This document shows, one piece after another, positions 37,056 through 62,450 of a DNA stretch of 64,000 bases; the stretch's first letter is position 1, and each line of letters starts with the position of its first letter. The notes below the pieces were generated by a model, which worked only from the letters and a program-made list of their open reading frames with translations, had not been told where the DNA came from and ran no database searches. Position numbers and translations under genes: made by a program. Where the stretch lies: contig CADEFQ010000012.1 in NCBI GenBank assembly GCA_902826635.1, positions 7,019 through 71,018 of the forward strand, given 5' to 3'. Origin of the DNA: an uncultured Pseudomonadota bacterium (GTDB lineage Bacteria; Pseudomonadota; Gammaproteobacteria; Steroidobacterales; Steroidobacteraceae).

Positions 37056-37071
37056 TCCGGGAAGCAGGCCC

Positions 37072-37104
37072 GCTGCCCGCGCGCAATCGTCACCGCGCGG
37101 CAGC
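37072..37104 (+). terminator. GC hairpin after the CsgG-like gene
   Basis: GCTGC + CGCGCG pairs with CGCGCG + GCAGC (37072-37083 with 37094-37104), 11 bp with one bulged C and a 10-base loop, starting 17 bases after the stop. There is no T-run, so termination would need Rho or be partial. Confidence 0.4.
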
Positions 37105-43753: not shown

Positions 43754-43768
43754 GATGATTCCTTGGCG

Positions 43769-44763: not shown

Positions 44764-47064
44764 ATGCGGTCACGCGGAAAAATTTCAAAGAGCATTGGTA
44801 TTTCACTGACATTGTGTCTCAGCACGTCGGGCGCAGCGCTGGCGCAGTCGGCGGGCGATGCAGAACAGGGGGTACTCGCCGAAGTCACAGTCACCGCCCA
44901 ACGGCGCAGTGAAAGCCTGCAGAGCGTGCCGGTGGCCGTGAGTGCGTTCGATCCCGCCGCGCTCGATGCTCATCAGGTGCTCACGCTGCGTGACGTATCG
45001 AACGTCGTGCCAAACCTGTGGATGGAGACCAACACTGGCCTCTCGAGTGGCTCACGCGCCGCGCTGCGTGGGGTCGGTGAGGACGAAAGCTTCTTCACTT
45101 CTGACCCGCCGGTTGGCATCTATATCGACGACGTCTACATACCGCGCCAGACGGGCGCTTTGTTCGACCTGTACGATGTCGAGCGCATCGAAGTGCTGCG
45201 CGGCCCGCAAGGCACGCTCTACGGACGCAATACATCCGCGGGTGCGATCAAACTCGTCAGCGTCAAGCCTTCTCCGGAGCGCCGCGTCATGGCGGAACTG
45301 ACGGGCGGCGATTATGGCCGCTTCGACGCGCGAGCGAGCTTGTCGGGCGGGTTGTCGGAGCACCTGTCGGGTCAGCTCGCCGCGCTTTCGCGTCAACGCG
45401 ATGGCTACGACAGAAACCTGGTGGATGGCTCGCGCGTCAACGACCAGGATATTTTCTCGTGGCGCGCTGCGCTGCGTTACCAGCCATCGGAGACGCTCGA
45501 CATTCTGCTGTCTTTCGACCAGAGCCGTGAGCGCTCGACGCCAGGCTATGCGACCGGCGTACTGCTTCAGCCGCCCGGCGGTCTCGGGCCATGGAATCCT
45601 GACCAGCAGTACGACGGCGACACGAACGTGCACACACTGCGCTCGGACCTGCTTGACCCGCAGAATGATCTCGACCAGCGCGGCGGGAGCGTCAACATCG
45701 GTTGGGAGCTTGGCGACGCGACCCTGCGCTCGATCACGGCGTGGCGTGGCCTCGACAACACGCTGCTCCTGGATGCCGACGGGCAAGACACCTGCTTCGG
45801 ACTCGCGCTACCTTGCCTGCACCTGTACCAGGACCAGAGCCAGGATCAGTTCAGCCAGGAGCTGCAGCTGCAGGGCAAGGCTTTCAGCGACCGGCTCGAC
45901 TACGTCGCCGGTGCGTACTATTTCACCGAATCGAACTGGCAGCGCACCGAGAACATCATCCTCGCGCCGTTTGGCACCAATCCGTACTTCGACACTTCGC
46001 TCGACACCGATAGCATCGCGCTCTTTGGCTCGGCGACCTGGGCCGCGACGGAACGGCTCAATCTGACAGCCGGTGTGCGGTGGACCAGGGATTCAAAGGA
46101 TTTCGGATCTGCGGTGTTCGAGGCTTCCGGTGCCGCGCAGCAAGTGTGCGTCTCGGCAGATCACACACAAGTTTACTCGGCCGGGCCTTGCACGATCGGA
46201 TCGCCGGTCGGCGCGACTACCGATCGTCTTTCGCGCCGCTTCGATCAGTCTTGGTCGAAAGTGACGCCACGAATCGCGGCCGACTTCCAGCTGAACGACG
46301 ACGCAATGATCTACGCCTCGATCAGCACGGGCTTCAAGTCGGGCGCGTTCGACGGCCGCGAATCGAGTACGGCGCTCTACACGCTACAGCCGATCGCACC
46401 CGAGACGACCCAGTCTTATGAAGTCGGCGGCAAGGCCGAGTGGTTCGGCCGGCGCCTGCGCACGAACCTTGCGCTTTTCATCAATGAGATTGATGACCTG
46501 CAGGGCACGGGCACGAACGTGGTGACCAATACCTTCACCCGGTTCTCGGTGGGTGATGCCGAGACCCGCGGCGCCGAAATCGAGATCACCGCAAAGCCCA
46601 TCGCGCCACTGACGCTCACTGCGTCGGTCGGCCTTCTCGACACGAAGTACACGAAGATCAACTTCGACCAGGTCGTCGATTGCGGGCCGGTCGGCACGGG
46701 TACCACGGACCTCCAGCTCAAGTTCTCGCCGAAGGTCTCATCGTTCGTCGGCGCCGCGTGGCGCGTGCCGGTCGCCGCACTGAGCGGCGAGGTCGAGATT
46801 GGTGGCGACTGGACTCACAAGAGCAGTTATTTTCACAGCTCGTGCAACCCGGTGCCCAGCAAGGAAGACGGCTACAATCTCTTTAACGCCCAGATCGCTT
46901 TCGAGTCCGACGATGCGCGCTGGCGGATCGCCGCCGCCGTGCGCAATCTCGGCGACGAGGACTACTCGACGGGCCAGTTTTTTATTCCCGGACTCGGCTT
47001 CGACGCGATCTATTTCAACCCGCCGCGCAACTGGTCGATCACGGCACGCTACACGATCAAATGA
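44764..47064 (+). CDS. TonB-dependent outer-membrane receptor
   Basis: 766 aa. Signal peptide (ISLTLCLSTSGAALAQ), TonB-box-like region (VLAEVTVTAQRRSESLQSVPVAVSAF), then a plug domain (LTLRDVSNVVPNL ... VGIYIDDVYIPRQTGALFDLYDVERIEVLRGPQGTLYGRNTSAGAI). A 22-stranded barrel follows, ending in NWSITARYTIK. The plug is typical of catabolic receptors in sphingomonads and related bacteria rather than siderophore receptors. The ATG lies seven bases after AAGGAG inside a predicted hairpin. The next gene, an amidohydrolase, starts inside the receptor's stop (ATGA). Ligand unknown. Confidence 0.92.
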   Translation: MRSRGKISKSIGISLTLCLSTSGAALAQSAGDAEQGVLAEVTVTAQRRSESLQSVPVAVSAFDPAALDAHQVLTLRDVSNVVPNLWMETNTGLSSGSRAALRGVGEDESFFTSDPPVGIYIDDVYIPRQTGALFDLYDVERIEVLRGPQGTLYGRNTSAGAIKLVSVKPSPERRVMAELTGGDYGRFDARASLSGGLSEHLSGQLAALSRQRDGYDRNLVDGSRVNDQDIFSWRAALRYQPSETLDILLSFDQSRERSTPGYATGVLLQPPGGLGPWNPDQQYDGDTNVHTLRSDLLDPQNDLDQRGGSVNIGWELGDATLRSITAWRGLDNTLLLDADGQDTCFGLALPCLHLYQDQSQDQFSQELQLQGKAFSDRLDYVAGAYYFTESNWQRTENIILAPFGTNPYFDTSLDTDSIALFGSATWAATERLNLTAGVRWTRDSKDFGSAVFEASGAAQQVCVSADHTQVYSAGPCTIGSPVGATTDRLSRRFDQSWSKVTPRIAADFQLNDDAMIYASISTGFKSGAFDGRESSTALYTLQPIAPETTQSYEVGGKAEWFGRRLRTNLALFINEIDDLQGTGTNVVTNTFTRFSVGDAETRGAEIEITAKPIAPLTLTASVGLLDTKYTKINFDQVVDCGPVGTGTTDLQLKFSPKVSSFVGAAWRVPVAALSGEVEIGGDWTHKSSYFHSSCNPVPSKEDGYNLFNAQIAFESDDARWRIAAAVRNLGDEDYSTGQFFIPGLGFDAIYFNPPRNWSITARYTIK

Positions 47065-48476
47065 TGGATATACCCGAGTTCATTATTCGTGACGGCACCG
47101 TGCTCACCATGAACAGTGGGCGCGAAAGCTTCGAATCCGGTTTCATCTGGGTAAAGGGCGAACAGATCTTTCGCGTCGGAGACGTGTCCGAACTGGGCGA
47201 TGTGCCGGCGGGGGTCAGCATCACCAGCGCACGCGGCAGGTTGATCATGCCGGGGCTGGTCAATGCCCACGGCCACCTTTCAAATGGCGTCCTGCGCGGA
47301 ATCTATGACGAGATGCCGCTCAGTGTGTGGTTTTCGAAGGGAATGTGGCCGGTGCTGGAGGCACTGGATGCAGAGACCGGCATGGCGAGTGCCGAACTCG
47401 CGCTGATGGAACTGATGACCACCGGAGTCACAACCACGGTCAGCGCGGAGTTCGGCACACCCAGACGGGAGCTTCCGGACGCGGTGCTGACGGCCGTGCG
47501 CAAGTCGCGCGTGCGTGCGCTCGTCTCGCGGATGACGATGGACAATCCGGATGAGTCCGACCCGTCCCAGGCGGTTCCGCCCGCGTATCGTGAATCGGTC
47601 GCGCAGGCCGTATCCGAAGTCGAGCGCCTGCAGCGGGAGTATCGATCGGCGCTCGTGACCGTGGCCCCGGAGGCGCTCGGTGTCCTGCGATGCACACCGG
47701 AGATGGTATCGGGACTCCATGACCTCGCAGTGCGTAGCGACTCACCGTTCCTGATGCACATCGCGAGCTCGAGAGACGAGCATGAGTCGAGTCACCGTTT
47801 GTTTGGACATGGCAGTGTCACGGAACTGAAGCGCCGCGGTGCGCTGTCCGGGCGCACTTTGCTCGCGCACGCCATTTGGCTCGACGACGCCGAGATTCGG
47901 GACGTCGCGGCGGCCGCCACCGGGGTCTCCCACAATCCAGTCGCCAATGCCTACTATGCATCCGGTATCGCGCGCTTGCCGGAACTGCTTGCGGCCGGCG
48001 TGCGCGTCGGACTCGGCGTCGACGGGGCTTCGACCAACAACAGCCAGAATCTGTGGGAGACGATGAAGATGGCGCTGCTGTTCCAGAAGGAGCGTACGGC
48101 TGACGCCGGCTTCGGCTCTGCCGAATTGGCTCTTGAGCTGGCGACTCGCGGCGGCGCGGCCGCGTTGCACATGGAAGACCGGATCGGTTCGCTCGAGCCG
48201 GGCAAGCAGGCAGACTTCATTTCGATCGATACTGCGCGTACCGCGCTCGCGCCGCGTCAGACTCTCATTTCGAATCTCGTGTATTCGAACGATCCCCTGG
48301 CCGTCAGAGATGTCTACGTGGCCGGAGAGGCGGTCGTGGTCAATGGCGTGCATCGCTTTCTTGAGCGGGACGCGGTTTTGATGGCCGCCAATCAGGCGCT
48401 CGGGCGCATTCTGGAGCGATCCGGATTGAAGTCGTACCTCGAGTCACGGTCCGGCTGGCATTGGAGACGGTCATGA
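47061..48476 (+). CDS. ATZ/TRZ-type amidohydrolase (MTA/SAH deaminase-like)
   Basis: 471-aa cytosolic metal-dependent hydrolase. Motifs in order: IMPGLVNAHGHLSNGVLRG with metal His70 and His72, FLMHIASSRDEHESSH, LLAHAIWLDDAEI with a metal His, GVSHNPVANAYYASG and the metal Asp in VGLGVDGASTNNSQN. It ends IGSLEPGKQADFISID. All ligands are present, so it should be active. The family deaminates or dechlorinates ring amines (S-adenosylhomocysteine, guanine, triazines). The ATG lies inside the receptor stop, so uptake and hydrolysis are coupled. Next gene also ATGA-linked. Confidence 0.88.
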   Translation: MMDIPEFIIRDGTVLTMNSGRESFESGFIWVKGEQIFRVGDVSELGDVPAGVSITSARGRLIMPGLVNAHGHLSNGVLRGIYDEMPLSVWFSKGMWPVLEALDAETGMASAELALMELMTTGVTTTVSAEFGTPRRELPDAVLTAVRKSRVRALVSRMTMDNPDESDPSQAVPPAYRESVAQAVSEVERLQREYRSALVTVAPEALGVLRCTPEMVSGLHDLAVRSDSPFLMHIASSRDEHESSHRLFGHGSVTELKRRGALSGRTLLAHAIWLDDAEIRDVAAAATGVSHNPVANAYYASGIARLPELLAAGVRVGLGVDGASTNNSQNLWETMKMALLFQKERTADAGFGSAELALELATRGGAAALHMEDRIGSLEPGKQADFISIDTARTALAPRQTLISNLVYSNDPLAVRDVYVAGEAVVVNGVHRFLERDAVLMAANQALGRILERSGLKSYLESRSGWHWRRS

Positions 48477-49162
48477 GACGCAGGCACTATTCGGGAGTCA
48501 TCGAGGCGATCGGCGACTCAAAGGGCCTGCGTGGACTCGAGCGGTTCTCGGTTTCCGTCGCCCCCGACGGGAGTCGCACGCTGCACGCCACCTGCGAGAT
48601 CTACGACCGCAACGTGTCGAAAGACATCGTCTATTCGGTCGACCGTGACTTCCGGCCCATCGATTCCTATGTACGCCTCATCAAGGACGGCGCACTGCTC
48701 GGTTCGGGGCGCTTCCAGTTTGACGGCAACGGAGCCGGCCTCGAGTGCGACAGCCGTGTACTGGGTCACGTCGCGCAGCGCATCGATCAGCGGGGTGGAT
48801 TCCCGAGCTTCGGCCCGCACCCGCTCACTTGCGACATCTGGCACCTCGCGCGCTACGACCATGACAGTGGCGTGAAGGTGCAGTACATCGATTCGGCGCT
48901 GAGTTCGCTCGAGCACGACGGCTGTTCGGGACCCATGCTGCATCCGATCAGGTTCGGAATCGAGTTCCTCGGCCCGAAGACGATTACCGTGCCGGCGGGC
49001 ACTTTCGAGACTCACCACTATCAGTTTCATCTCGAAGGCAGCCTCCCGCAGGAGCACCCGCTCGAGCAGCTTTGGTGCATCCCCGGCGACTTCATTTTCG
49101 TGAAGATCCGCGTCGATGGCTACATGTCGACGACCTATCAACTGACCGAACTGGTTCGTTGA
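48473..49162 (+). CDS. Hypothetical protein (229 aa)
   Basis: Starts at ATG 48473 inside the amidohydrolase stop. No signal peptide or membrane helix. It looks beta-rich: LHATCEIYDRNVSKDIVYSVDRDFRPIDSYVRLIKDGALLGSGRFQF, and TVPAGTFETHHYQFHLEG near the end. That last phrase resembles small beta-barrel DUF3108-like proteins, but the match is weak. Position between the amidohydrolase and a 222-aa membrane protein suggests a role in the same pathway. A frame open to 48461 uses TTG and is less likely. Confidence 0.75.
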   Translation: MRRRHYSGVIEAIGDSKGLRGLERFSVSVAPDGSRTLHATCEIYDRNVSKDIVYSVDRDFRPIDSYVRLIKDGALLGSGRFQFDGNGAGLECDSRVLGHVAQRIDQRGGFPSFGPHPLTCDIWHLARYDHDSGVKVQYIDSALSSLEHDGCSGPMLHPIRFGIEFLGPKTITVPAGTFETHHYQFHLEGSLPQEHPLEQLWCIPGDFIFVKIRVDGYMSTTYQLTELVR

Positions 49163-49175
49163 GGGTGCCTGCGGC

Positions 49176-49844
49176 ATGACCGGCGTTTACCTGCTGCTCG
49201 TTGTCGCGCACGTCCTCCTCTTCGCGTACTGGCTCGGAGCGGACTGGGGCGTGTACGTTACGTCGCGCTATGTCGCCGATCCGAAACTTTCGCTCGACGA
49301 GCGGCGCCGATTCCTGCAGGCCGCATTCCGCATCGACCTGTTGCCGCGCATCTCGTTCACGATGCTGCTGCCGGTCGGTGTGCAGATTGCCGCCTACTAC
49401 GGCGCCTGGCCGTTTCACGCCGCGTTCATCCCGGCTGTCTGGGTGTTTGCGCTCGCGTGGATGATTCTCAACGTGGCGGGCTACCTGCGAGCCGGCACGC
49501 CCGCCGGCGATCGCATCCGCGGCTGGGACCAGCGCATCCGGGTCGTGATGGCGCCGGTGCTGGTCGGTACCGGGCTGTGGTCCATCTCAACCGGCTATCC
49601 GGTTGCGCCGCTTTTCATCGCCCTCAAGATCACGGTGTTCGGCATCATGATCATCGTGGGCCTCGTGCTGCGCGCGATCATGAAGAACTGGGCGGTGGGC
49701 TTTCGCCGGCTTGCGACCGAAGGGCCGAGTGAGGCCATCGACGTGCTCTTCCAGGGCTCCCTGAAGCGCGCGCGCTTCATCGCGTACTTCATGTGGTCGC
49801 TGTCAGCCGTGATGGCCGTGCTCGGAATCGTGAAGCCCGCGTGA
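49176..49844 (+). CDS. Polytopic membrane protein, 222-aa paralogue A
   Basis: 222 aa with about five or six membrane helices. It shares motifs with the protein at 57788-58456: HVLLFAYWLGADWGVYVTSRY against HVLVMGYWIGSDLVVNALTHY, and the endings VLGIVKPA and YLGVAKPA, both at exactly 222 residues. The WDQRIR (here) and WDWRLR (there) segment precedes a similar helix. I do not recognise the family; CopD-like proteins have a related topology. It precedes an MFS gene whose GTG lies inside its stop. Confidence 0.8.
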   Translation: MTGVYLLLVVAHVLLFAYWLGADWGVYVTSRYVADPKLSLDERRRFLQAAFRIDLLPRISFTMLLPVGVQIAAYYGAWPFHAAFIPAVWVFALAWMILNVAGYLRAGTPAGDRIRGWDQRIRVVMAPVLVGTGLWSISTGYPVAPLFIALKITVFGIMIIVGLVLRAIMKNWAVGFRRLATEGPSEAIDVLFQGSLKRARFIAYFMWSLSAVMAVLGIVKPA

Positions 49845-51121
49845 TCCGTGGCGGTGCCAAAGGATTCACGCGCGGCCAATGGTCGTGGGCGATGGCCGAT
49901 TGGGCGCGCGAGCCGTTTTTCACCATCGTCCTGAGCCTGGTCTTTCCGCCGTACTTTGTCTCGGTCGTCGCCGCGGATCCCGTACGTGGCACGGCCCTGT
50001 GGGGATACGGCCTCGCCACGGCAAGCGCACTCCTGGTGGTCCTGAGCCCCTTTGCGGGTGCCGCGGCCGACAGCACGGGCCGGCGAAAACCCTGGATTGT
50101 TGGCTGCGTCATCGTGGCGGCGGCAGCTCTCGCGAGCCTGTGGGTGGCGACCGGGGCGCCGGGGCGCATCATATGGGTGCTCGCCTCGTGCGCGCTTGCA
50201 CAGCTCGCGATCGAGCTGTCACGCGTATTTACCGACAGCATGGTGCTGCGAGCGGCAGCACGCGAGCGGGTCGGCGAACTCAGCGGGCTTGCCGTCGGGC
50301 TCGGTTTTGCAGCCAGCATTCTGTATATCTGCGCAACGCTGGTCTTCGATGGCGCCAGCGCCCGCACCATTTCGGCGCTGAGCGGCGCATGGCTCGCGGT
50401 GTTCTTCGTACCACTGCTCCTCTGGTGCCCGGACTATCCCGGAGAATTGCGCGGCTGGGCCGCGAGCCGCCGCGACAGCCTCGCGCGGTTGCGCAACTTG
50501 CTGCGCGACCTGGTGCTTGTGCCGCAGGTGGGGCGCTTTCTGCTCGCACGGATGATTTACTGGGATGGCATGATGGGCCTGTTTTCGTTCATCGCGATTC
50601 TCGCGTCTTCGCGACTTGAATGGCGCGCCAGCGAGATCTCCGCGTTCGGCCTGCTGGGCCTGATTGCCGGCGCAGCAGGCGGCATCTTCGGCGGCGTGCT
50701 TGATCGCCGCTTTGGCTCGAAGCGTCCGTTGATGGGAGCGCTCGTGATCATGCTCGCCGTGTCGATCGTCATGCTGATCGAGCTGCCTGATAACAGCGAG
50801 CGCGCGATTGATGCGAAGCTTTTTTCTTCAGCCGGCGACCTGACGTTTCTGTCGCTTGCGATCGTCGCAAGCGCCGGCGTCGGTGCGCTGCTCGCGAGCA
50901 GCCGCTCGATGATGGTGCGCCTCTCGCCGGCCGATCGTCTCGGCGAGTTCTTCGGTCTGTACGTCATGGTGGGTCGGGCGTCGAGCTTCGCGGCGCCATT
51001 GCTGGTCGCGCTCGCCACGACCGCATTTGGCAACCAGACGACCGGCGTGTTCGGCGTCGCGCTCACCTTCATGGCGTTCGGCCTCGTGCTGCTCGGCAGG
51101 GTGCATGAGCCCGCGCGCTGA
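49841..51121 (+). CDS. MFS transporter, UMF1/Atg22-like
   Basis: 426 aa from GTG 49841, which overlaps the previous stop (GTGA). Twelve membrane segments are expected. The start GQWSWAMADWAREPFFTIVLSLVFPPYFVS is typical of the UMF1/Atg22 subfamily, and the cytosolic MFS motif appears as ADSTGRRKPW. Some relatives carry amino acids or drugs, but substrate here is open. A longer frame from 49793 would overlap the preceding gene. The next MFS gene overlaps its end by 17 bases. Confidence 0.86.
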   Translation: MIRGGAKGFTRGQWSWAMADWAREPFFTIVLSLVFPPYFVSVVAADPVRGTALWGYGLATASALLVVLSPFAGAAADSTGRRKPWIVGCVIVAAAALASLWVATGAPGRIIWVLASCALAQLAIELSRVFTDSMVLRAAARERVGELSGLAVGLGFAASILYICATLVFDGASARTISALSGAWLAVFFVPLLLWCPDYPGELRGWAASRRDSLARLRNLLRDLVLVPQVGRFLLARMIYWDGMMGLFSFIAILASSRLEWRASEISAFGLLGLIAGAAGGIFGGVLDRRFGSKRPLMGALVIMLAVSIVMLIELPDNSERAIDAKLFSSAGDLTFLSLAIVASAGVGALLASSRSMMVRLSPADRLGEFFGLYVMVGRASSFAAPLLVALATTAFGNQTTGVFGVALTFMAFGLVLLGRVHEPAR

Positions 51122-52412
51122 GCGCCCGGACGCGCCCTGGCCCACCGCGCGCATCGCATGGAGCGCGGTCGTCGTCCTGACACTCGTCTACTCTATCGCC
51201 TTCGTGCACCGCATCGGTCTCGGGCTGCTCGTCGAGCCGCTGCAGAAGGACCTGCACTTCAGCGACACGGCGATTGGATGGCTCGCGGGTATCCTGTTCG
51301 CGGTGCCGTACACGCTCGGCGGGCCGTTCTTCGGCTGGCTCGCCGATCGGAGCAGCCGCCGCTCGCTGATCGCGATCGCCTCGGCGGGCTGGAGCGCGAC
51401 GACTGCGGCGTTCGGCCTGCTGACGTCCTACCCGGCGCTGGCCGCCACACGCATCGCGGCGGGCCTCACGCAGTCGGCGCTGCAGCCGGCCGCCGCGTCG
51501 ATGATCGCCGACTGCTTTCAGGCGCGCGACCGCTCCCGAGCCTATGGAGTCTATGTCGCCGGCACTGCGTTTGGCACGGCGATCGCGTACTGGCTCGGCG
51601 CCGTTGCGATCGGCGTCGGCGCGCTCATCGCGACGACGACCGGCATGAAAGACTGGTCCGCGGCTTTCCTCGCGCTCGCCGTGATCGGGCTCATCGCGCC
51701 GCTCGCCATGGCGTTCGTCCGCGAGCCCGCGCGACAGGAACGCGCCGGGGAAGCGGCCGCGAACTTGCGCGCGACCTTTGGCTTCATCCGCCGCGAGTGG
51801 CTGGTCGTCGGCAGCCTGAGCCTCGGTGTCGCGATCTGCTTCCTCGCCCCCTACGGCCAGCTCGCCTTCATGCCGGTGATGTTCTCGCGCAAGTACGGCT
51901 GGAGCGCCGGCGAGCTCGCGCTCGTCTACGGCGTGATCGCGGTATTTGCAGGCGGATCCGGCTCGGTGCTCGGTGGCTGGATCTCGGCATGGCTCGCGCG
52001 CCGCGGCCGTGCCGACAGCGACTGGATCATCTGCACCGCGGGTTCGGCAGGCAGTCTCGTGACCGGCGGCATCGCGCCGCTGATGCCGACCGCCGAGTGG
52101 AGTCTGTTCTTCTTTGCGCTCTCGGGCCTGTTCACGAACTGGCCCTCGGTGGGCGCGCTCGGCGCGGTGAACCGCCTGGCGCCGAACGAAATGCGCGGTC
52201 AGCTGACGTCGGTCTATACGTCATGCGTGGGTCTGATCGGCGCAGGCCTCGGCCCGGTCGCCATCGGCACGCTGTCCGATCGCCTGCCGACGGCGTGGGG
52301 CGGGGTGTCGGCGGCGATGTCGATCACCTTCTTCGGTTGCGCGGTGCTGTCCTGCGCATTGCTGGCCGTGGGGCAGCGGTCGTATCGCACGCTCGCGGCC
52401 GGACGCACCTGA
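51105..52412 (+). CDS. MFS transporter, Spinster-like
   Basis: 435 aa from ATG 51105, overlapping the preceding gene by 17 bases. Twelve-helix major-facilitator protein with LLVEPLQKDLHFSDTAIGWLAGILFAVPYTLGGPFFGWLADRSSRRSLI, the loop 2-3 motif being DRSSRR. It resembles the MFS at 56420, so it is a probable paralogue. Last gene of the TonB-receptor operon. Direction of transport is not evident: it could import a hydrolysis product or export a metabolite. Confidence 0.88.
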   Translation: MSPRAERPDAPWPTARIAWSAVVVLTLVYSIAFVHRIGLGLLVEPLQKDLHFSDTAIGWLAGILFAVPYTLGGPFFGWLADRSSRRSLIAIASAGWSATTAAFGLLTSYPALAATRIAAGLTQSALQPAAASMIADCFQARDRSRAYGVYVAGTAFGTAIAYWLGAVAIGVGALIATTTGMKDWSAAFLALAVIGLIAPLAMAFVREPARQERAGEAAANLRATFGFIRREWLVVGSLSLGVAICFLAPYGQLAFMPVMFSRKYGWSAGELALVYGVIAVFAGGSGSVLGGWISAWLARRGRADSDWIICTAGSAGSLVTGGIAPLMPTAEWSLFFFALSGLFTNWPSVGALGAVNRLAPNEMRGQLTSVYTSCVGLIGAGLGPVAIGTLSDRLPTAWGGVSAAMSITFFGCAVLSCALLAVGQRSYRTLAAGRT

Positions 52413-52462
52413 TCCCATAACCGCCCTCCCCATCCTTCCTTGACCGCGGTTCCGCGATGCGC

Positions 52463-52474
52463 TAGTGTCTTCTA
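52463..52474 (+). promoter_or_regulatory. TAGTGTCT(T/G)CTA motif upstream of the second TonB receptor
   Basis: TAGTGTCTTCTA lies 17 bases after a TTGACC hexamer (52440-52445), so TAGTGT could be a -10 element. Just downstream, GCTTTT-CA-AAAAGC forms a six-bp hairpin near the start codon. The same motif with G at position 9 occurs at 56380-56391, before the MFS gene. Confidence 0.4.
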
Positions 52475-52506
52475 TATAGCTTTTCAAAAAGCAACCTGAG
52501 ACGTAT

Positions 52507-55122
52507 ATGAAAGCCATCAGGCGAATTGGAATTGCAGTCGCAGCGCTGACGATCGGAATTGGACCGGCAGCCGCCCAGGAGGCTGGCGATGTTGCGGCGG
52601 AGGAGTCCGCCGGCGCACTCGAGGAGATTCTCGTGTCAGCGCGCAAGCGCAGCGAGACGCTGCACGACGTGCCGCTCAGCGTCTCCGCGTTCTCGTCCGA
52701 CCAACTCGCCGCGATCGGCTTTCGCGGCCTAGAGGACGTCGCGCTCCGCACGCCCGGCCTGATGTTCTCGCAGCAGGGTGGTGCGATCCCGGGCCGCTAC
52801 AACTGCGCGATCCGCTTCCGCGGCATGAACGTGTCGTCCGAAATGCCTTCCTATCAGGTGGGTGCACTGTTTATCGATGGCGTCTATGCGCTCTCCGGCT
52901 GCAACAGCCTCGGCGCCGAAGACATCGAGCAGGTCGAAGTCATCAAGGGCCCGCAGGCGGCCTATTTCGGTCGCAATACCTTCGGTGGCGCGGTCAACTA
53001 CATCACACGCAGACCGCGCTCCGAGTTCGACATGAAGGCGTCCGCTGATATCGGCACCGAGGACGACCAGGAGTACCGGCTTTCGATTGAGGGTCCGGTC
53101 GTGGGCGACCATCTTGCCGGACGCGTGACGGGCCGTTTCTACGACAAGGGTGCGCAGTACATCGCATCTGACGGCGGCAACCTCGGCGCCGAGAAGACGA
53201 GGTCGATCGGCATTTCGCTCGCTACCGATCCGACCCGGACGCTCAGCGCGCGCTTTCGCGCTTTCTACTCGGAGGACCGTGACAGCGCGCCGGCGGGCGG
53301 CTTCATCTCCGGCACATTGTTCGATTCGTGCTCAGGGACCATCGGCCCGGACGGGATGGTGAGGGGACGTTACTTCTGCGGTCGAATTCCAAGCCGCGCG
53401 TCAATGGGTCCCGGCTTCATCAGCAGCAATACCTCGCTCGATCCACGCGGCTTTTCACCGGACCGCCCCAACTTCCTTTACGACGCGCTCGTCAACAACA
53501 GCTGGACGCTGCCCATCGGCGCTGCCAATCCGACCTCGGACCCGGCGCAGGATGGCGCGCTCGCGAGCGACTTCTTCGGCCTGAAGCGCAATGCGTTCCG
53601 CATTAGCGCCAGCGCGCGCTATGAACTGCCGAACGGCTGGGCGATGACTGCAGTCGCCGCGCGTAACGAGCTTGCGGCCACCTGGATTCGCGACTATGAC
53701 CTGACGGATGTCGAGGTTTGGTGGTCACGCGACCCGCAGGACATGCGAGACACCAGCTATGAGCTGCGCCTCCAAGCACAGTCGGGCCGCCTCGACTGGC
53801 TCGCCGGCGTCTCATACTACGAGCAGGAGTTCACCGGTAACGGTGGAGGCGGCACAAGCGTGACGCGGTTTCCGACGGCCACCGGTTTCGTGCCCCAGGT
53901 CTTCACCAACGGCCTGAACAACAATGACGAGATTCGCAACATCGGCGTTTTCGGCGGGCTTACTTACGCGCTCAACGACCAGTGGAAGCTGTCGCTCGAG
54001 GGTCGCTATCAGACCGACGAGATGATCAAGGGCCAGGTGGCCGCCGAGCAGAGCAATCTACCGGCTGCGAAGCAGAAATGGGAGACGTTCCTGCCGCGCG
54101 TGATCCTGCAGTGGGAGCCGGACGCGGCCAACAATATCTATGCGTCGTTCTCGCAGGGCGTGTTGCCCGGCGACATCAACGCGAGTTATGTGTTCGGCAC
54201 GGCTGGCATGCGCAGTGCGCAGGAAATCGCGTCGCTGCAGCAACAGGTCCGCGAGGGCGTGGCGGATCGCCCCGACCTCGGCGTCCCGGGAGGCACCGAT
54301 CCGATCAGCGGCGTCGACATCTTCATCGACCAGGAAGAGATTCAAAGCATCGAGCTCGGCTGGAAGCGACAGTGGTTGAACGGGCGGGTGCAGACCGGCC
54401 TCGCGTTCTATGCGATGGAATGGGACAACCAGAAGGGCGGCGGCACGCGCTATGTCATTGACTTCAACGGTGGCACCGGCAATCCGTATGTCGCCGACAA
54501 TCCCGCGGCCTGCGCGGGCCAGCCGAAACCGAGCGCGCAGCCGGGCGGGCTCTTCTGCGACGACGTTCTGCGCTCGATCAGCGTGAAGTTTCCGGGCTCC
54601 TCGCGACTCAAGGGAATCGAATTCGACGGGCGCTGGGCAGTGACCGACAACCTGACCGTCGACGGCGGCATCGAGTGGAACGACAACGAGTACACAGCGT
54701 ACACCGTGAACATCGTAGAGCCGATCGCGGGTACGAACGACATGACCGGCAACCGCACGCCGCGCTATCCGGAATGGAAGGGTAATGCCGCCGTGACCTA
54801 CAACGGCGTGCTGCCATGGAGCGACGCGAGCTGGTACACGCGCGCCGACTTGACTTACATCGGCCCGTACTTCATCGACGAATCAAACCTCGCGACCGCG
54901 CCGTCGCAGACGCTCGTCGGCGCGCAGTTCGGAGTGCGGTGGGACAAATTGCGCCTCGAGCTCTACGGTAAGAACCTGACCGACGAGGACAACTGGGCCG
55001 CCGCGTCGCGCTGGTCCGACTTCACCATTCCAGGCGTGTTCTTGTTCTCGGTAAACCAGGGCGCGTCGGTGTCGCCGCAGCCGCCCCGGCGCTTCGGCAT
55101 CCGCCTCACCTACGAATACTGA
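52507..55122 (+). CDS. TonB-dependent outer-membrane receptor
   Basis: 871 aa. Signal peptide (GIAVAALTIGIGPAAAQE), TonB-box region (LEEILVSARKRSETLHDVPLSVSAF), plug domain (FRGLEDVALRTPGLMFSQ ... VGALFIDGVYALSGCNSLGAEDIEQVEVIKGPQAAYFGRNTFGGAVNYITRRP) and a barrel ending PPRRFGIRLTYEY. It shares the general design of the first receptor but is not a close copy: barrel loops are longer. The next gene is a Sel1-repeat protein starting 27 bases later. Ligand unknown. Confidence 0.92.
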   Translation: MKAIRRIGIAVAALTIGIGPAAAQEAGDVAAEESAGALEEILVSARKRSETLHDVPLSVSAFSSDQLAAIGFRGLEDVALRTPGLMFSQQGGAIPGRYNCAIRFRGMNVSSEMPSYQVGALFIDGVYALSGCNSLGAEDIEQVEVIKGPQAAYFGRNTFGGAVNYITRRPRSEFDMKASADIGTEDDQEYRLSIEGPVVGDHLAGRVTGRFYDKGAQYIASDGGNLGAEKTRSIGISLATDPTRTLSARFRAFYSEDRDSAPAGGFISGTLFDSCSGTIGPDGMVRGRYFCGRIPSRASMGPGFISSNTSLDPRGFSPDRPNFLYDALVNNSWTLPIGAANPTSDPAQDGALASDFFGLKRNAFRISASARYELPNGWAMTAVAARNELAATWIRDYDLTDVEVWWSRDPQDMRDTSYELRLQAQSGRLDWLAGVSYYEQEFTGNGGGGTSVTRFPTATGFVPQVFTNGLNNNDEIRNIGVFGGLTYALNDQWKLSLEGRYQTDEMIKGQVAAEQSNLPAAKQKWETFLPRVILQWEPDAANNIYASFSQGVLPGDINASYVFGTAGMRSAQEIASLQQQVREGVADRPDLGVPGGTDPISGVDIFIDQEEIQSIELGWKRQWLNGRVQTGLAFYAMEWDNQKGGGTRYVIDFNGGTGNPYVADNPAACAGQPKPSAQPGGLFCDDVLRSISVKFPGSSRLKGIEFDGRWAVTDNLTVDGGIEWNDNEYTAYTVNIVEPIAGTNDMTGNRTPRYPEWKGNAAVTYNGVLPWSDASWYTRADLTYIGPYFIDESNLATAPSQTLVGAQFGVRWDKLRLELYGKNLTDEDNWAAASRWSDFTIPGVFLFSVNQGASVSPQPPRRFGIRLTYEY

Positions 55123-55148
55123 TTTTCATCATGACGGGAGTCTCTGCA

Positions 55149-55766
55149 ATGCGAAGTCTATGGAGTGTATCGGTCGCGGTTTTGCTGCTGGGTGGACTCG
55201 CCTCACCGGCTTTCGCCGACATCACGGAATGTGACTGGGTAGCAGGCCACACGACGATGCCCGAAAGGCAGACGCCAGGCGTGCCCCCCAAGATGATCCG
55301 GTGGAAGGGTGCGATCTTTGCCTGTGAACGGGACCTGGCGGCCGACCCGCAGAATCCGCGCCTGATGTATTTGCTTGGGCACGCGCTGTACTTCGACCAC
55401 CCGTGGCAGGACCGCAAGCGCTCGATTGAGCTGATCCGTGCTGCCGCGGACAAGGGCTACTCGCAAGCTCATTTCGTGCTAGGACTGTTCTATTCGAATG
55501 GCGAACTGGGCGAGGTGCTGCCGCAGAACTGGTGCGAAGGTGCGAAGCATCACCTGATTGCCGCGCGCTGGGGCCGTTACGCCTCGCTGATCAGCTACAG
55601 TCGCTTCGCCCTCAAAGGCCGCTACGAGAAGTGCACCGAGCCGGTCGACTGGAACGAGGTTGCCGGCTTCCTGGACCTCGCGAAAGGATCAGCTCAGTAC
55701 GACTGGTATGACGGGTTGCTGATCGAGGACCTCGAGGAGCAGCTGGCGAAGAAGCTCCAGCACTGA
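55149..55766 (+). CDS. Exported Sel1-like repeat protein
   Basis: 205 aa with a signal peptide (MRSLWSVSVAVLLLGGLASPAFA). After it come Sel1/TPR-like helical repeats: DRKRSIELIRAAADKGYSQAHFVLGLFYSNGE, CEGAKHHLIAARWGRYASLISYSRFALKG. Such proteins act as periplasmic scaffolds. Cys residues (CDW, ACER, NWCEG, KCTE) could form disulphides. Start ATG 55149 has GGGAG upstream; ATG 55131 lacks a spaced site. Follows the second receptor. Confidence 0.78.
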   Translation: MRSLWSVSVAVLLLGGLASPAFADITECDWVAGHTTMPERQTPGVPPKMIRWKGAIFACERDLAADPQNPRLMYLLGHALYFDHPWQDRKRSIELIRAAADKGYSQAHFVLGLFYSNGELGEVLPQNWCEGAKHHLIAARWGRYASLISYSRFALKGRYEKCTEPVDWNEVAGFLDLAKGSAQYDWYDGLLIEDLEEQLAKKLQH

Positions 55767-55821
55767 CGTAACGCTGAGTCGCGCGGGCATCCTGCGTTCT
55801 GTACGAGCGCAGTGTGCCCGC

Positions 55822-56349
55822 TCAGCGCAATCCCTCCAGGATCGACGCGCTTACCGACCCGGACTCGAAACGTGCGACGAGCGTGCGCAGCGTGGCGTAG
55901 AGATGTGCACGCTCGGCTGCCGGCAGCGATTCGACGTGCGCAAGCTGGTTGGCACTGATCGCGCTGAGCGCCTCTTCCGCAAGCTTGTGGCCTCGCGCCG
56001 TAATTTCGACGCGCACCCCGCGTCCGTCGCGCTTCGATGGGGCGCGCTTGACCAAACCGCTTTTTTCCAAGCGCCGCAGCAGGTTCGACAGCCCGCCGGT
56101 CGACATGCCGATGCTCTCGCTGATGGAGGTGGGCGACATGGTCCCCCGGGGGCCGCTTCGACGTAGAGTGGAAATGACCAGGTACTCGCCCCAAGACAGG
56201 CCGAACTCTTCCAGAACGCGCCCGCCGGTCCGCGAGAAGTGATTTGCCAAGTAGAAGAACGAATAGACAATGCCCTTCGCAGTACCGTCGATATTGGGGA
56301 ATTCCCGCTTCAGGTCGATAAGCGCGCGGTCGATGATGCTGGTCTGCAT
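55822..56349 (-). CDS. MarR family transcriptional regulator
   Basis: 175 aa. Winged helix: LSWGEYLVISTLRRSGPRGTMSPTSISESIGMSTGGLSNLLRRLEKSGLVKRAPSKRDGRGVRVEITARGHKLAEEAL. MarR proteins bind palindromes as dimers and are released by aromatic ligands. It is divergent from the MFS gene at 56420, with 70 bases between, so it probably controls that gene and itself. The shared TAGTGTCT motif lies in that gap. Confidence 0.9.
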   Translation of the reverse strand: MQTSIIDRALIDLKREFPNIDGTAKGIVYSFFYLANHFSRTGGRVLEEFGLSWGEYLVISTLRRSGPRGTMSPTSISESIGMSTGGLSNLLRRLEKSGLVKRAPSKRDGRGVRVEITARGHKLAEEALSAISANQLAHVESLPAAERAHLYATLRTLVARFESGSVSASILEGLR

Positions 56350-56379
56350 ACTTTTTTTTCACTGATCGGAGGTACGGTG

Positions 56380-56391
56380 TAGTGTCTGCTA
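56380..56391 (+). promoter_or_regulatory. TAGTGTCT(T/G)CTA motif upstream of the MFS gene
   Basis: TAGTGTCTGCTA starts 40 bases before the MFS start, with TTTCAC 17 bases before it as a weak -35. It is one base different from the motif at 52463-52474. It may be a promoter element or part of an operator for the divergent MarR protein. Confidence 0.4.
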
Positions 56392-56419
56392 ACCCCGCAA
56401 GTCGAGCAAGAGTAGCGCC

Positions 56420-57757
56420 ATGAGTCGAGCGAAGAACTCCGATGCCTCCTATCCGCGGTCAGTCTATTCTTGGTACGTCGTCGGCGTATTGCTCCTAGCG
56501 TACATCTTCGCGTTCATTGACCGCGACGTGATCGCGCTGCTGGTGCAGCCGATCAAGGCGGACCTCGGCATCAGCGACACGCAGATGAGCTTCCTGCTCG
56601 GGGGTGCGTTCGCGCTGTTCTATACCTTCTTCGGCATGCCGATCGCGTGGCTCGCCGATCGCAGCAGCCGACGCCGGATCATCTCCATCGGCGTGACGCT
56701 GTGGTGCGTCGCGACCGTCTTGTGCGGAACGGCCGGCAGCTACTGGGCGCTGTTCGCGGCGCGCGTCGCCGTCGGTGTCGGTGAGGCGGCGCTGAACCCG
56801 CCCGCACTGTCGCTGCTGAAGGATTACTTTCCGCCGCACCGGCTCGGCCGCGCGGTCGGTCTTTACACGGCCGGCATCGCCTGCGGCAGCGGCGTCGGCA
56901 GCTTCCTGTCGGCGACGGTGTATCCATCGATCGACGCGCACGGCGCCTACACGCTGCCGCTGTTCGGGCTCGTACAGCCCTGGCAGTTCATGTTCATCCT
57001 TGTGGGGATGCCCGGGCTTGCCGTAGCGCTCCTTACCCTGACGATTCGCGAGCCGGTGCGCCGCGCGAGTGCGTCCGTGTCGCAGCCGCTACCCCTATGG
57101 CGATCTTTCGCGTTCGTCGCGAGCCGCCGATCGACCTACGTGCTGCTGTTTCTCGCGATCTCGGTGACCGCAATCACCAACTACGGCGTGGGGTACTGGG
57201 TGCCCGAATTCCTGCGCCGAACATACTTGCTCGACGTTCCACAGATGTCGTATTTCCTGCAGGTGCGCGGCGTGGTGCTGATTGTCACCGGCCTCGTCGG
57301 CGTGCTGATCGGCGGCTGGCTGTGCGATGTACTGAACCGGCGCTACGACGACGGTTATATCCGAGTCGCGCTGATCGGCTTCGTGCTGCTCTTTTTCGGC
57401 TACGTGGGTATGCCGCTGATGCCGACCCCCGAGCTCGCCATGGCGATGCTGGTGCCGGCGGTCCTCGGCGGCGCGATCCCGACGGTTGCCGGTATTGCCG
57501 CAGTGCTCGCAATTGCGCCGCCCAACATGCGCGCGCAGATCACCGCGATGTACTATTTCACGCTGAATCTCGTCGGGCTCGTGGTGGGCCCCACGATGGT
57601 CGCGGTGCTCACCGACCGCGTCTTCAGGGACGAGGCGGATCTCTACAAATCGCTCGCGGTGACGGCGTTCGTGAGCATCGCGATCGGCTTTGCGCTGCTC
57701 GGGTATTGCCGCCGTCATTATGCGGCCAGCATGCGCGAGTCCCGCGGCTGGGCATGA
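56420..57757 (+). CDS. MFS transporter, Spinster-like
   Basis: 445 aa with twelve membrane helices. FAFIDRDVIALLVQPIKADLGISDTQMSFLLGGAFALFYTFFGMPIAWLADRSSRRRIISIGVTLW matches the Spinster-like pattern and the MFS protein at 51105. It has the DRSSRR loop and ARVAVGVGEAALNPPALSLLKDYF. Divergent from MarR; the gene is followed after 30 bases by the 222-aa membrane protein. Its substrate is probably the compound taken up by the second receptor (inference). Confidence 0.9.
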   Translation: MSRAKNSDASYPRSVYSWYVVGVLLLAYIFAFIDRDVIALLVQPIKADLGISDTQMSFLLGGAFALFYTFFGMPIAWLADRSSRRRIISIGVTLWCVATVLCGTAGSYWALFAARVAVGVGEAALNPPALSLLKDYFPPHRLGRAVGLYTAGIACGSGVGSFLSATVYPSIDAHGAYTLPLFGLVQPWQFMFILVGMPGLAVALLTLTIREPVRRASASVSQPLPLWRSFAFVASRRSTYVLLFLAISVTAITNYGVGYWVPEFLRRTYLLDVPQMSYFLQVRGVVLIVTGLVGVLIGGWLCDVLNRRYDDGYIRVALIGFVLLFFGYVGMPLMPTPELAMAMLVPAVLGGAIPTVAGIAAVLAIAPPNMRAQITAMYYFTLNLVGLVVGPTMVAVLTDRVFRDEADLYKSLAVTAFVSIAIGFALLGYCRRHYAASMRESRGWA

Positions 57758-57787
57758 ATTCGAATTCTCCAATGAAAGTGTGACGCC

Positions 57788-58456
57788 ATGACTGCTTATA
57801 AATTTGCGCAATGGATGCACGTGCTCGTGATGGGTTACTGGATCGGCAGCGACCTCGTTGTCAACGCGCTGACGCACTACACCGCGCGAGCGTCCGGCCT
57901 CTCGGGCGCGGAACGCAAGCGGCTCTGGGATTTCCTGCTCGACGTCGACCAGCATCCGCGCAACGCGCTGATCTTCAGCGTGCCGCTCGGCCTCACGTTG
58001 GCGTCGATGCTCGGTCTCGTGGCCATTCATGGTGCTGGGCTCGTGGCTGTGTGGGTGCTGTGCGCGGCGTGGTTCTGGTTCATGTGGTTGACCCACTGGA
58101 AGCGTGACGCGCCGACCGGTCGCACATGGGCGAAATGGGACTGGCGGCTGCGCTATGTGCTGATCGCCGCCGCGGTCGGAGTCGGGCTCTGTTCGCTGAT
58201 TGCCGGCCGGCCGTTTGCCGCGCCGTGGCTCGCGTGGAAGGTGCTGCTCTTCGGCGGCGTGCTCACCTGCGGCATCGGCATCCGCTACTACATCAGGAAG
58301 TCGTACGCGGCGTGGCCGCGCATCTGGGCGGAAAAGGCCGAACCGGGCGACGAAGCGATCGTGCGCGCGGCGATGTGGCACGGCACCTATGTGCTGTGGA
58401 CGCTCTGGGCACTGCTCGTCGTCATCGGCTATCTCGGCGTTGCGAAGCCGGCGTAA
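57788..58456 (+). CDS. Polytopic membrane protein, 222-aa paralogue B
   Basis: 222 aa with about five or six helices, paralogous to the 49176 protein: same length, YWIGSD near the start, WDWRLR before a helix and LGVAKPA at the end. It has extra His and Trp residues (WFWFMWLTHWKRDAP, WHGTYVLWTLWALL). No known family was recognised. In both copies the gene lies next to an MFS gene, here 30 bases downstream, so a joint function with the carrier is plausible. Its end is convergent with the Tat nitrilase-like gene. Confidence 0.8.
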   Translation: MTAYKFAQWMHVLVMGYWIGSDLVVNALTHYTARASGLSGAERKRLWDFLLDVDQHPRNALIFSVPLGLTLASMLGLVAIHGAGLVAVWVLCAAWFWFMWLTHWKRDAPTGRTWAKWDWRLRYVLIAAAVGVGLCSLIAGRPFAAPWLAWKVLLFGGVLTCGIGIRYYIRKSYAAWPRIWAEKAEPGDEAIVRAAMWHGTYVLWTLWALLVVIGYLGVAKPA

Positions 58457-58477
58457 CGGCCGCGGGATGATTCCGCC

Positions 58478-59677
58478 TCAGCGGCCCGTCCGTCGCTTCA
58501 GCAGCGCGCCCGCCTCCCCGTAGTCGTTCGGCAGTTCCTCGAGGAAGGCGTTCGGTTTTACTGAAGGCTCATATTGCTGAAAAACCGGCAGGAACAGCGC
58601 CATCGGGTACTCGGCCGGTGCGCGTGTCCGGCGAAAATCCGCGATCGGAACGCGCGCCGTCACGATGTCTTCATGGTGGTTGGCCGAGGCGGCAAGCGTC
58701 GCGCCGCGCGGGTCGACAATCACGGTGCCGCCGTCGCGCGCGCCCACCGCTTCCGTGAAGCCCGGATTGTCAGGCGAAACCGAGTTGCCGACACCCACGC
58801 AATACGTTCGCGTCGTGCGAGCCGTCTGCGTAGCCTGCTCCGAGTTCGAAGCCCCGGTGACCGTGAGAATCAGGATCTCCGCGCCCTTCATCGCGAGTGC
58901 CTGGTAGAGCATGGGCTCGAGGCCCACCGCCGTCGTGGCGATGTTGCCGATGTCGGTGCGCGCAACGGGCAGCGTCGCATCCCAGCCGTACAACTCGACG
59001 TAGCGATCGAGCACGTCGTACACGGTCGTGCCGATGAGCCCGATGCCACCGAAGGCGCCAAGGATGTTGCGCGCCTTCCATTGCTTGCTGACGATGTCGC
59101 CCCCCGGCCCGACGATCACCGACATGTTGATGACGTGATTCGGCCAGTCCTTGTCGCGCGCGTAGCAGCCGAACGTGATGTAACAACCGTAGTGTTTCGC
59201 GCGCTCGCCGATCGCCGCCGATTCGGGGCCCGGCAGGTCGAAGGCGATCTTCTGCAGCTCCGCGCGATTCCATGGCTGCCAGCCCTGGATTGGAAACTCG
59301 TGCATGCACAGCAGGTCTTGTTTCGCGCCCCACCGGCGCTCGCCGCCCCATTCAGGAGCCGAGCCCTGTGCGTAGTCGATCAATTTCACGACGTGTGCGA
59401 GATTGCGCTTTGTGGTCGCATCGCGGTTCTTCAGGTCGACCGACATCAGTCGCGACTGGATCGCCGAAACATTGATCGAGTCCTGCCGAAGCGGCACGGT
59501 CGCGTAGACACCCTTCTTCATCACCGACACGGCATCACCGGATGCGCGTACCGACGCCGTGTCGGCAGATTGAGCGCCCAGCGCCGCCGGCGCGGCCAGC
59601 GCCCCGAGGCTCGCAATTCCTGCGCCTGCCAGCAGTTCGCGACGGGAAATGGGGTCCGGAGACGACTTGTGCTTCAT
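58478..59677 (-). CDS. Tat-exported nitrilase-fold protein with catalytic Cys replaced by Ala
   Basis: 399 aa from ATG 59677, preceded by GGAG; ATG 59689 has no site. Tat signal: PISRRELLAGAGIASLGALAAPAALGA. The rest is a nitrilase-superfamily domain that aligns with the protein at 19864: Glu127 in CMHEFPIQG, Lys201 in SKQWKARN and then IGNIATTAV where the other protein has IGNLCTTST. The Cys codon position is GCC (58937-58939), so residue 247 is Ala. It cannot use the normal Cys thioester chemistry and is either inactive and ligand-binding or works differently. Convergent with the 222-aa membrane gene. Confidence 0.85.
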   Translation of the reverse strand: MKHKSSPDPISRRELLAGAGIASLGALAAPAALGAQSADTASVRASGDAVSVMKKGVYATVPLRQDSINVSAIQSRLMSVDLKNRDATTKRNLAHVVKLIDYAQGSAPEWGGERRWGAKQDLLCMHEFPIQGWQPWNRAELQKIAFDLPGPESAAIGERAKHYGCYITFGCYARDKDWPNHVINMSVIVGPGGDIVSKQWKARNILGAFGGIGLIGTTVYDVLDRYVELYGWDATLPVARTDIGNIATTAVGLEPMLYQALAMKGAEILILTVTGASNSEQATQTARTTRTYCVGVGNSVSPDNPGFTEAVGARDGGTVIVDPRGATLAASANHHEDIVTARVPIADFRRTRAPAEYPMALFLPVFQQYEPSVKPNAFLEELPNDYGEAGALLKRRTGR

Positions 59678-59780
59678 CGGTGGCTCCATGATCAGGATCG
59701 CACGACCCTAGCACCTGAAATGGCGCGTGAACAACAACGAAACCGCTCGCGCCACAACCAGCCGTTGTGACGCGCCGCCT

Positions 59781-60991: not shown

Positions 60992-62338
60992 TCAGGCGGC
61001 TGAACTCAAGGGTGCGGCGGACTGCGCACGCGCCCACAACCGGGCGCCCCACTGGCTGGCTGGCTTGTGCGTCAGGCGCTCGGCCGTGTAGTGCCGGGCA
61101 AGGTTCGCGGCACCGCTGCGAAGCGCGGACTCGATCAGCGTGAGCGTGATCAGATCGCGTTGCGCATGGCTGCCGCCGAAACGATGCGCACCATCACGGA
61201 TCGACTCGAGCCGCGCCGCTGCGTCGGCGTAGCGCCCATGCACGAATGCGGTGACGGCCTCCGTCAACGGCAGGCCGACGTCACGGGTCATTGCCGCGTT
61301 GGTGTCCCCCTGCCTTGTAGCGTCCTGCATGCGCAAGGTGAGCTGCGCCAGCGCGGACTCGCGCCCCGTCGCGGCGAGCGCCATCGCAGCATGCGCATCG
61401 TTGAAGGCATAGAAGCCGGCCTCACCATCGAGTCGCGCCTGCCAGTCGTCCGCCACCCTCTCAAAGCGATCACCGACATCCACGTCCTCCAGGTGCAGCC
61501 GCCAGAGCAGCGCTGTCGCATCAATCAGTGGCAGCAGGAACGAGGCCGGCTCGGGATGCACATGACGATCGAACAACGAGAGGGCGCGGTCATGGTGGGC
61601 GCCGTCCAGGTAGAACAGCGCGAGATGCCAGAAGTTGTGGAACGCGAATCCATTGCCTGGCGCCCAGTCGATTTCGCGTGTGACAAGGAAGTTGATTCCG
61701 TCCTCGATGCGGCCCCGCATCTCCATCACGTGCACGGCGGCATGCACGGCCCAGCCGTCCTTCGGCTGGATGGACAGGGCGCCCAACGCCGTCGCCTCCG
61801 CCTCCGGGTATTGATTCATCTCCTCGAGGCCGAACGCGTGCATCCCAAGCACATAGGAATAGCCCGGGAGCGATGCGTCCCAGTGCGGCAGCACGCGGGA
61901 GACCCTGTTGCGCAAGTTCAACGCGTCGCCGCAGTAGAAGTCCATGAGGTGTCCCACCTGCAACGCGAGAGCATCGCGCGGATGGTTCGCCAATACGTGA
62001 TCAATCGAACGACTGGCTGCCTGCCAGCGACCTTCGATCAACAGCCCGGTGGCGGCGATGAGGCCCTGCTCCCGATCGTTGGCCTGCGCCGAATGGGCGC
62101 GGGCCGCTTCGAGCGCTTGCGCCGCCAACGGCACGAATTTGCGCTCGGCCAGCGTATACAGCACCAGCGCCTTCATCAAATGCCCGGCGATGAACCCGGG
62201 CGAGGCCTGCAATGCCTCATCGATTGTCGCAACGGGGTCGCCGACATAGCCCTGAAACTGCTCGAGCGCACTTTCATAGCGGTCCAGCGCGAAAGCGTCG
62301 GCGCCGATGAGGGGAATGCCGCGTAGATCCTTCTTCAT
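60992..62338 (-). CDS. TTC38-like tetratricopeptide protein
   Basis: 448 aa starting MKKDLRGIPLIGADAFALDRYESALEQFQGYVGDP. It has helical TPR-like pairs (AQALEAARAHSAQANDREQGLIAATGLLIEGRWQAAS, LNLRNRVSRVLPHWDASLPGYSYVLGMHAFGLEEMNQYPEAE, GWAVHAAVHVMEMRGRIEDGINFL, NFWHLALFYLDG) in the order seen in TTC38-family proteins. No signal or membrane segment. Biochemical role unknown. Divergent from the GlxA-type regulator at 62451, which may control it. Confidence 0.8.
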   Translation of the reverse strand: MKKDLRGIPLIGADAFALDRYESALEQFQGYVGDPVATIDEALQASPGFIAGHLMKALVLYTLAERKFVPLAAQALEAARAHSAQANDREQGLIAATGLLIEGRWQAASRSIDHVLANHPRDALALQVGHLMDFYCGDALNLRNRVSRVLPHWDASLPGYSYVLGMHAFGLEEMNQYPEAEATALGALSIQPKDGWAVHAAVHVMEMRGRIEDGINFLVTREIDWAPGNGFAFHNFWHLALFYLDGAHHDRALSLFDRHVHPEPASFLLPLIDATALLWRLHLEDVDVGDRFERVADDWQARLDGEAGFYAFNDAHAAMALAATGRESALAQLTLRMQDATRQGDTNAAMTRDVGLPLTEAVTAFVHGRYADAAARLESIRDGAHRFGGSHAQRDLITLTLIESALRSGAANLARHYTAERLTHKPASQWGARLWARAQSAAPLSSAA

Positions 62339-62450
62339 GATGACCGATCCCTTGGATGAAATTGACAAACCCTGGAGTACAGGTGACAAGTTACGATGGC
62401 GGTGCCTGTTGGGCCAGGGCCATTTCGGCAACAAACCGGACGGATCGGCC

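Follow-up and report, generated by a model that had tools for sequence, protein, structure and literature searches.

Two divergent membrane proteins resembling HemJ and DUF2269 in a catabolic locus of an uncultured Steroidobacteraceae bacterium: candidate haem-binding oxidoreductases

HemJ (UPF0093, PF03653) is a protein of about 140 residues with four helices, in which H-x6-W, W-x3-K and a KP/RP towards the end are functional residues (H10, W83 and K87 of HemJ). In a title cited within PMC11662147 it is called a b-type haem protein. The membrane urate oxidase PuuD (DUF989), as presented in PMC4562309, has eight helices and, at its C-terminus, a cytochrome c; within a catabolic locus its gene has a transporter and a deaminase gene as neighbours, it is often found with urate transporters, its role as urate oxidase was assigned by deletion and complementation, and its membrane domain bears only distant similarity to DUF2269. 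The latter (PF10027) is itself an uncharacterised membrane family, with members of about 155 residues. Here we describe a family of membrane proteins that resembles these systems to different degrees, and of which two members, A and B, are encoded in a single locus of an uncultured gammaproteobacterium of the Steroidobacteraceae.

The stretch of DNA analysed here, henceforth the window, comprises 64,000 nucleotides of one contig (C12, CADEFQ010000012.1) of a draft genome of 3.2 Mb (G000). As an earlier note on the window had observed from the letters, A and B are equal in length and have start, middle and end motifs in common, and each adjoins an MFS gene and lies downstream of a TonB-dependent receptor; open reading frames, Pfam matches and the alignment of the two proteins all agree with this description (Table 1). 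The locus is headed by a LysR regulator. Its amidohydrolase falls under the cut-off of each model among the best 25 of 49 NCBIfam models, and the N-terminus of the carbon-nitrogen hydrolase gives a weak Tat-target match (E 0.055). The ATG22-type MFS gene has a possible GTG start that overlaps the stop of A by 4 bp (as GTGA). No megablast match to phage records was obtained for positions 47000-58500. Elsewhere in the window four long candidate genes, at 36284-37435, 33501-34811 and 18774-19841 on the plus strand and 60992-62452 on the minus strand, are without a Pfam match at 1e-5.

Table 1. Genes of the locus encoding members A and B, with positions in the window
Feature	Position	Strand	Basis and remarks
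LysR regulator, head of locus	43766-44674 (start approximate)	+	PF00126, PF03466
TonB-dependent receptor 1	44764-47064	+	PF00593, PF07715
Amidohydrolase, deaminase/TRZ-ATZ type	47061-48476	+	Amidohydro_1 1.7e-53
Partner c1, LolA/DUF1849/DUF3108-type beta-barrel	48461-49162 (likely start 48473)	+	Profile, AF2 model
Member A (222 aa)	49176-49844	+	ORF; homologue of member B
MFS carrier, ATG22/MFS type	49841-51121 (ORF 49793-51121)	+	ATG22 1e-22, MFS_1 2.5e-17
Second MFS carrier	51027-52412 (limits of the ORF; start probably more internal)	+	MFS_1 2.7e-43
TonB-dependent receptor 2	52507-55122	+	PF00593, PF07715
TPR/Sel1-like protein (weak)	55131-55766	+	Weak Pfam and NCBIfam matches
MarR regulator	55822-56349	-	MarR_2 1.1e-11
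Third MFS carrier	56420-57757	+	MFS_1 1e-44; ends 30 bp before member B
Member B (222 aa), deep paralogue of A	57788-58456	+	ORF; separate clade in 134-member tree
Carbon-nitrogen hydrolase	58478-59689	-	CN_hydrolase 6.4e-11

Members A and B share 29% identity over 212 residues (BLASTP, E = 4e-30), a value indicative of homology, and in the AF2 model of A (mean pLDDT 93.4) six helices are long and one is short. The family was rightly taken to be an unnamed one, as no Pfam, NCBIfam or PHROG model matches A or B; DUF2269 in particular matches neither at E up to 1, and a sequence search of the PDB (E up to 10) returned nothing for the 222-residue protein. The fold search of the PDB with the model likewise recovered nothing at E 0.001 or better. 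The structures it listed, with Z of 14.8 and below, were receptors, rhodopsins, sensor domains and designed bundles, and were set aside because helical bundles tend to yield such matches. Self-comparison gave no internal repeat (best off-diagonal probability 1.0), and the cytochrome c motif CXXCH is absent from both sequences.

The two neighbourhoods had suggested a single module, carrier plus helper, that was duplicated and put to use on different compounds. This picture dissolves when their parts are compared. The MFS proteins adjoining A and B show no significant similarity to each other (E 0.14), it is the middle of the three carriers that shares 33% identity with the carrier adjoining B, the two TonB receptors share 24% identity, and the gene order is unlike, A preceding its MFS gene and B following its own. 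In a midpoint-rooted tree of 134 members, drawn from 105 genes of 30 out of 98 related genomes and 29 of 36 genome-contig loci (two short gene fragments, four loci on the same contigs and three broken or partial loci being left out), A and B fall into different clades of one half of the tree, each with its own orthologues in other genomes. This separation, together with the unrelated MFS proteins, argues against a duplicated module. Two further genomes, G002 and G046, the latter from another genus, hold both paralogues within a single locus, that of G046 also encoding a LysR regulator, the barrel protein c1 discussed below, an ATG22-type MFS carrier, a second MFS carrier, a TonB receptor and an amidohydrolase according to protein clustering. 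Because of these two genomes, what is conserved appears to be a single catabolic locus that contains two dissimilar family members. Pairs of family genes no more than 10 kb apart were observed 9 times against 1.2 expected under scattering; as G060, G075 and G088 are congeneric and the loci of G000, G002 and G046 are of a single type, these amount to about five or six independent cases. Up to eight copies are present per genome (G061), and the window genome has four, two of them outside the locus. Two of the public records in our collection look mislabelled: that titled Klebsiella pneumoniae (L034) has the gene layout of a contig from the window's own family (G018:C23), and that titled Bifidobacterium breve (L037) has a locus resembling other actinobacterial loci, one of which is titled Nanopelagicaceae.

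Profile comparisons connect the family with DUF2269 and HemJ. With the alignment of 134 members hhalign gave probabilities of 91.1 (global mode) and 74.6 (local mode) for DUF2269 and of 79.0 and 78.4 for HemJ, six control membrane families reaching at most 0.3 globally and 8.2 locally. With an alignment of 36 members the global and local values were 84.7 and 75.0 for DUF2269 and 57.4 and 44.7 for HemJ, and one control attained 15.0 locally. The local alignments to both families are confined to the C-terminal half. No such profile similarity was found to eight PuuD proteins (2.7 and 0.8 local, 0.3 and 0.2 global). The comparison profiles were made from 6 of 8 DUF2269, 12 of 15 HemJ and 8 of 9 PuuD loci, the others being left out where extraction was not clean or, for one DUF2269 locus, where it lay under the cut-off. 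When the 36 members were searched against Pfam at E up to 10, DUF2269 matched 14 (best 7e-5), CopD (PF05425) matched 3 (best 0.11) and UPF0093/HemJ matched 1 (E 0.54), values that do not amount to membership of either the CopD or the HemJ profile; the window genome contains no PF03653 candidate.

The conserved residues point in the same direction. The histidine of H-x6-W and one lysine are present in all 134 members, the tryptophan of W-x3-K in 121 and a KP/RP near the end in 104. The longer form H-x6-W-x-G occurs in the N-terminal stretch of 129 of the 134 and of all eight PuuD proteins, and H-x6-W in 12 of 12 HemJ proteins. The ordered combination of H-x6-W, W-x3-K and a KP/RP end, a pattern composed after the alignments were seen, is found in 98 of 134 members and in every one of the 12 HemJ proteins, and in none of 6 DUF2269 proteins or of 515 other proteins of 120-300 residues; member A misses it by one letter, having F in place of W. 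DUF2269 is the best profile match of the family and retains the helix-1 histidine in all six sequences and KP/RP near the end in five, but lacks H-x6-W in all six. HemJ has the three motifs in the same order, but it is far shorter than the 222 residues of the family proteins and has four helices where the model of A has six long ones; the family proteins, unlike HemJ, are present in several copies per genome, sit in catabolic loci and, in the case of one clade, come mostly from genomes without HemE. With PuuD the family has in common the N-terminal motif and the catabolic setting beside transporters, and differs from it in the number of helices and in the lack of a cytochrome c domain. On these sequence comparisons the family appears to be a variant, as yet uncharacterised, of the DUF2269 and HemJ kind, distantly related to both.

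The gene directly upstream of A encodes a protein of 233 residues, c1. Its profile found 35 matches in the loci searched, two of which come from a contig represented twice, and had no match in 20 control regions. Among 87 non-redundant loci c1 lies within 5 kb of a family gene at 17 and within 600 bp at 7; at the remaining 70, some of them cut by contig ends, it was not found within 5 kb. Its placement varies. In the window (13 bp by ORF ends), L007, G002 and G046 it immediately precedes the family gene on the same strand. On the sphingomonad plasmids pJE1 and pTomTYG65b it follows that gene after 24 bp, again on the same strand, the pJE1 copy being labelled DUF3108. In seven actinobacterial-type loci, of which several are closely related, it is encoded on the opposite strand at a distance of about 500 bp. 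By profile matches it thus stands beside the family in Gammaproteobacteria, Alphaproteobacteria and Actinobacteria, and in part of the family's range it is a closer conserved partner than the adjoining MFS gene. The AF2 model of c1 (pLDDT 89.8) matches the DUF1849 structure 6ntr with Z 17.4 and an rmsd of 2.9 over 201 residues, and also 2h1t (Z 15.9), VioE (Z up to 9.5) and LolA (Z up to 9.4). It thus has the fold of the LolA, DUF1849, DUF3108 and VioE barrels, at about 6-13% identity in those matches. Barrels of the LolA type bind lipids, and VioE is an enzyme. The window copy has no Pfam match at 0.01, and the DUF3108 matches of other c1 members lie below the cut-off of that model. A signal peptide is unlikely, since the first strand of the model begins at residue 4 and reading of the sequence shows none; c1 is therefore probably cytosolic. 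On the two plasmids (pTomTYG65b and pJE1; L234 and L235, 1-20603) the arrangement of the locus is nearly identical: besides the family gene and c1 it encodes two MFS carriers, one TonB receptor, an oxidoreductase linked to FAD and proteins resembling 3-isopropylmalate dehydratase. TomTYG65 is among the isolates of a study on tomatine (PMC10653915), in which no link between this locus and tomatine was seen.

We infer, tentatively, that A and B are membrane-embedded haem-b-binding oxidoreductases of a catabolic locus, with c1 as a binder of substrate and with carriers that can be interchanged; this is the reading towards which we lean. It is modelled on PuuD because there a membrane domain encoded beside transporters can be a catabolic oxidase. 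In such a scheme one or another carrier would import the substrate, and c1 would bind it in the cytosol and present it to the family member. A and B would then oxidise the imported catabolite, a hydrophobic or aromatic compound, possibly acting on different intermediates of one pathway, and the electrons might pass to the respiratory chain, as proposed for PuuD via its cytochrome c. A related but unlikely possibility is that the family members have no substrate site of their own, and serve a soluble dehydrogenase as its membrane anchor or as a quinone-interacting electron acceptor. Genes for FAD-binding proteins, a GMC oxidoreductase and electron transfer flavoproteins near several members would fit such a role, but no single dehydrogenase family is constant among the matches listed, and only one histidine is conserved in at least 90% of the members, fewer than classical bis-His cytochromes b need.

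The earlier note had instead seen in the family a possible new accessory of transporters, and a subunit that binds the MFS carrier and aids its folding, specificity or coupling would account for the placement of both window copies beside MFS genes, one with the possible overlap noted above. Part of this observation was borne out, as adjacency to an MFS gene recurs in G002 and G004 (loci of the member B type) and in G046 (member A type). The notion of a conserved carrier and helper pair was not, for the MFS proteins beside A and B show no detectable relationship and the transporter genes differ by locus, with MFS and TonB genes in some, LIV-type ABC genes in the actinobacterial loci and a TRAP-like cluster (c24) in six loci, the ABC and TRAP labels being assigned by reading of the sequences. 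The survey of neighbours covered the 87 non-redundant loci with 170 direct neighbours, 164 of which were scanned with Pfam after four family genes and two ORFs open at the locus end had been left out; the control consisted of 129 genes from 20 regions, the last three of which gave one, no and one gene. Since gene calling took the longest ORFs, some of the neighbours may not be real genes. Considering the best 25 families of each set, MFS_1 was matched by 10 of 164 direct neighbours and 2 of 129 control genes (p = 0.07), an excess in the direction of an accessory role, but 154 of the 164 do not match it. TonB receptors account for at least 5 of the 164, in a ranking that mostly excludes families with a single member. 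Direct neighbours among the matches listed include FAD-binding proteins, CoA-transferases and hydrolases. The family is therefore found largely beside genes without a link to one type of transporter, and its recognisable relatives are DUF2269 and HemJ; we accordingly regard a transporter-accessory function as improbable. In a further set of loci (L117, L119, L122-L125, also L082 and L084) family genes lie in similar order near MFS-like, electron transfer flavoprotein, rhodanese and DUF6491 genes.

One part of the tree bears on haem itself. A clade of 25 genes (support 1.00) is spread over 22 genomes, all of which lack HemJ, whereas HemJ is present in 7 of the 8 family-bearing genomes outside the clade. 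HemE is absent from 19 of the 22 and from 1 of the 8 (Fisher p = 4e-4, a statistic that ignores kinship, some of the genomes counted being 78-91% complete), and the three clade genomes with HemE have HemG or HemY matches. In the window genus (G000-G006) none of the seven genomes yielded HemE, HemJ, HemG or HemY, G004 being 89% and G006 78% complete. Ferrochelatase is absent from five of the nine clade genomes first noted and present in G000, G070, G083 and G094. As HemE is missing from so many of them, most genomes with the clade, the window genus included, are probably haem auxotrophs. G000 would be an auxotroph that keeps HemH. No paper in the collection searched combines heme auxotrophy with Steroidobacteraceae, and the part of PMC10740692 available contains nothing on HemJ.

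These patterns raise the possibility, likewise improbable in our estimate, that the family, at least in this clade, acquires or handles haem in cells that do not make it. Besides the deficit of HemE and the HemJ-like motifs, homologues in actinobacterial records would agree with this, one being titled Nanopelagicaceae, the group to which Planktophila belongs. Haem auxotrophy is reported for Planktophila in PMC12381374. The association fails in reverse, since G015 lacks HemE and HemJ and yet has no family member, and shared ecology or ancestry could produce the same pattern. Furthermore, the neighbours seen in the clade are electron transfer flavoprotein, redox and other metabolic genes, with no haem-uptake gene noticed. 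A and B both lie outside the clade, which from the window genome includes the copy on contig C22, and the HemE and HemJ counts come from the 30 family-bearing genomes among the 98 related ones. The joint absence of HemJ, HemY and HemG had also suggested a missing protoporphyrinogen oxidase, an idea dropped in view of the absent HemE and, in five of nine genomes, ferrochelatase. That the family is a fourth protoporphyrinogen oxidase substituting for HemJ is accordingly very improbable despite the complementary distribution of HemJ and the shared motifs, since without HemE the substrate of such an enzyme should not be made, the three clade genomes that have HemE also have HemG or HemY matches, and the family is found in as many as eight copies in a genome and in loci with catabolic genes.

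The reading of A and B as oxidoreductases may be carried further. More speculatively, and with appreciably less confidence than we place in that reading, the family might constitute a new class of membrane haem oxidases of HemJ stock that spread in the catabolic loci of a diverse range of bacteria, the two unlike copies serving successive steps and a cytosolic LolA-like barrel feeding them a hydrophobic substrate. If true, HemJ and PuuD would be joined by another kind of membrane oxidase, one clade of which would be tied to a way of life that does without haem synthesis. The catabolic loci of many uncultured bacteria and of sphingomonad plasmids carry this unnamed family, and if its members are oxidases and not parts of transporters, a redox step has been overlooked in the pathways predicted for these loci, just as happened with urate oxidase until PuuD. 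How haem is used in cells that are unable to make it becomes a directly testable question through the association of one clade with absent haem biosynthesis.
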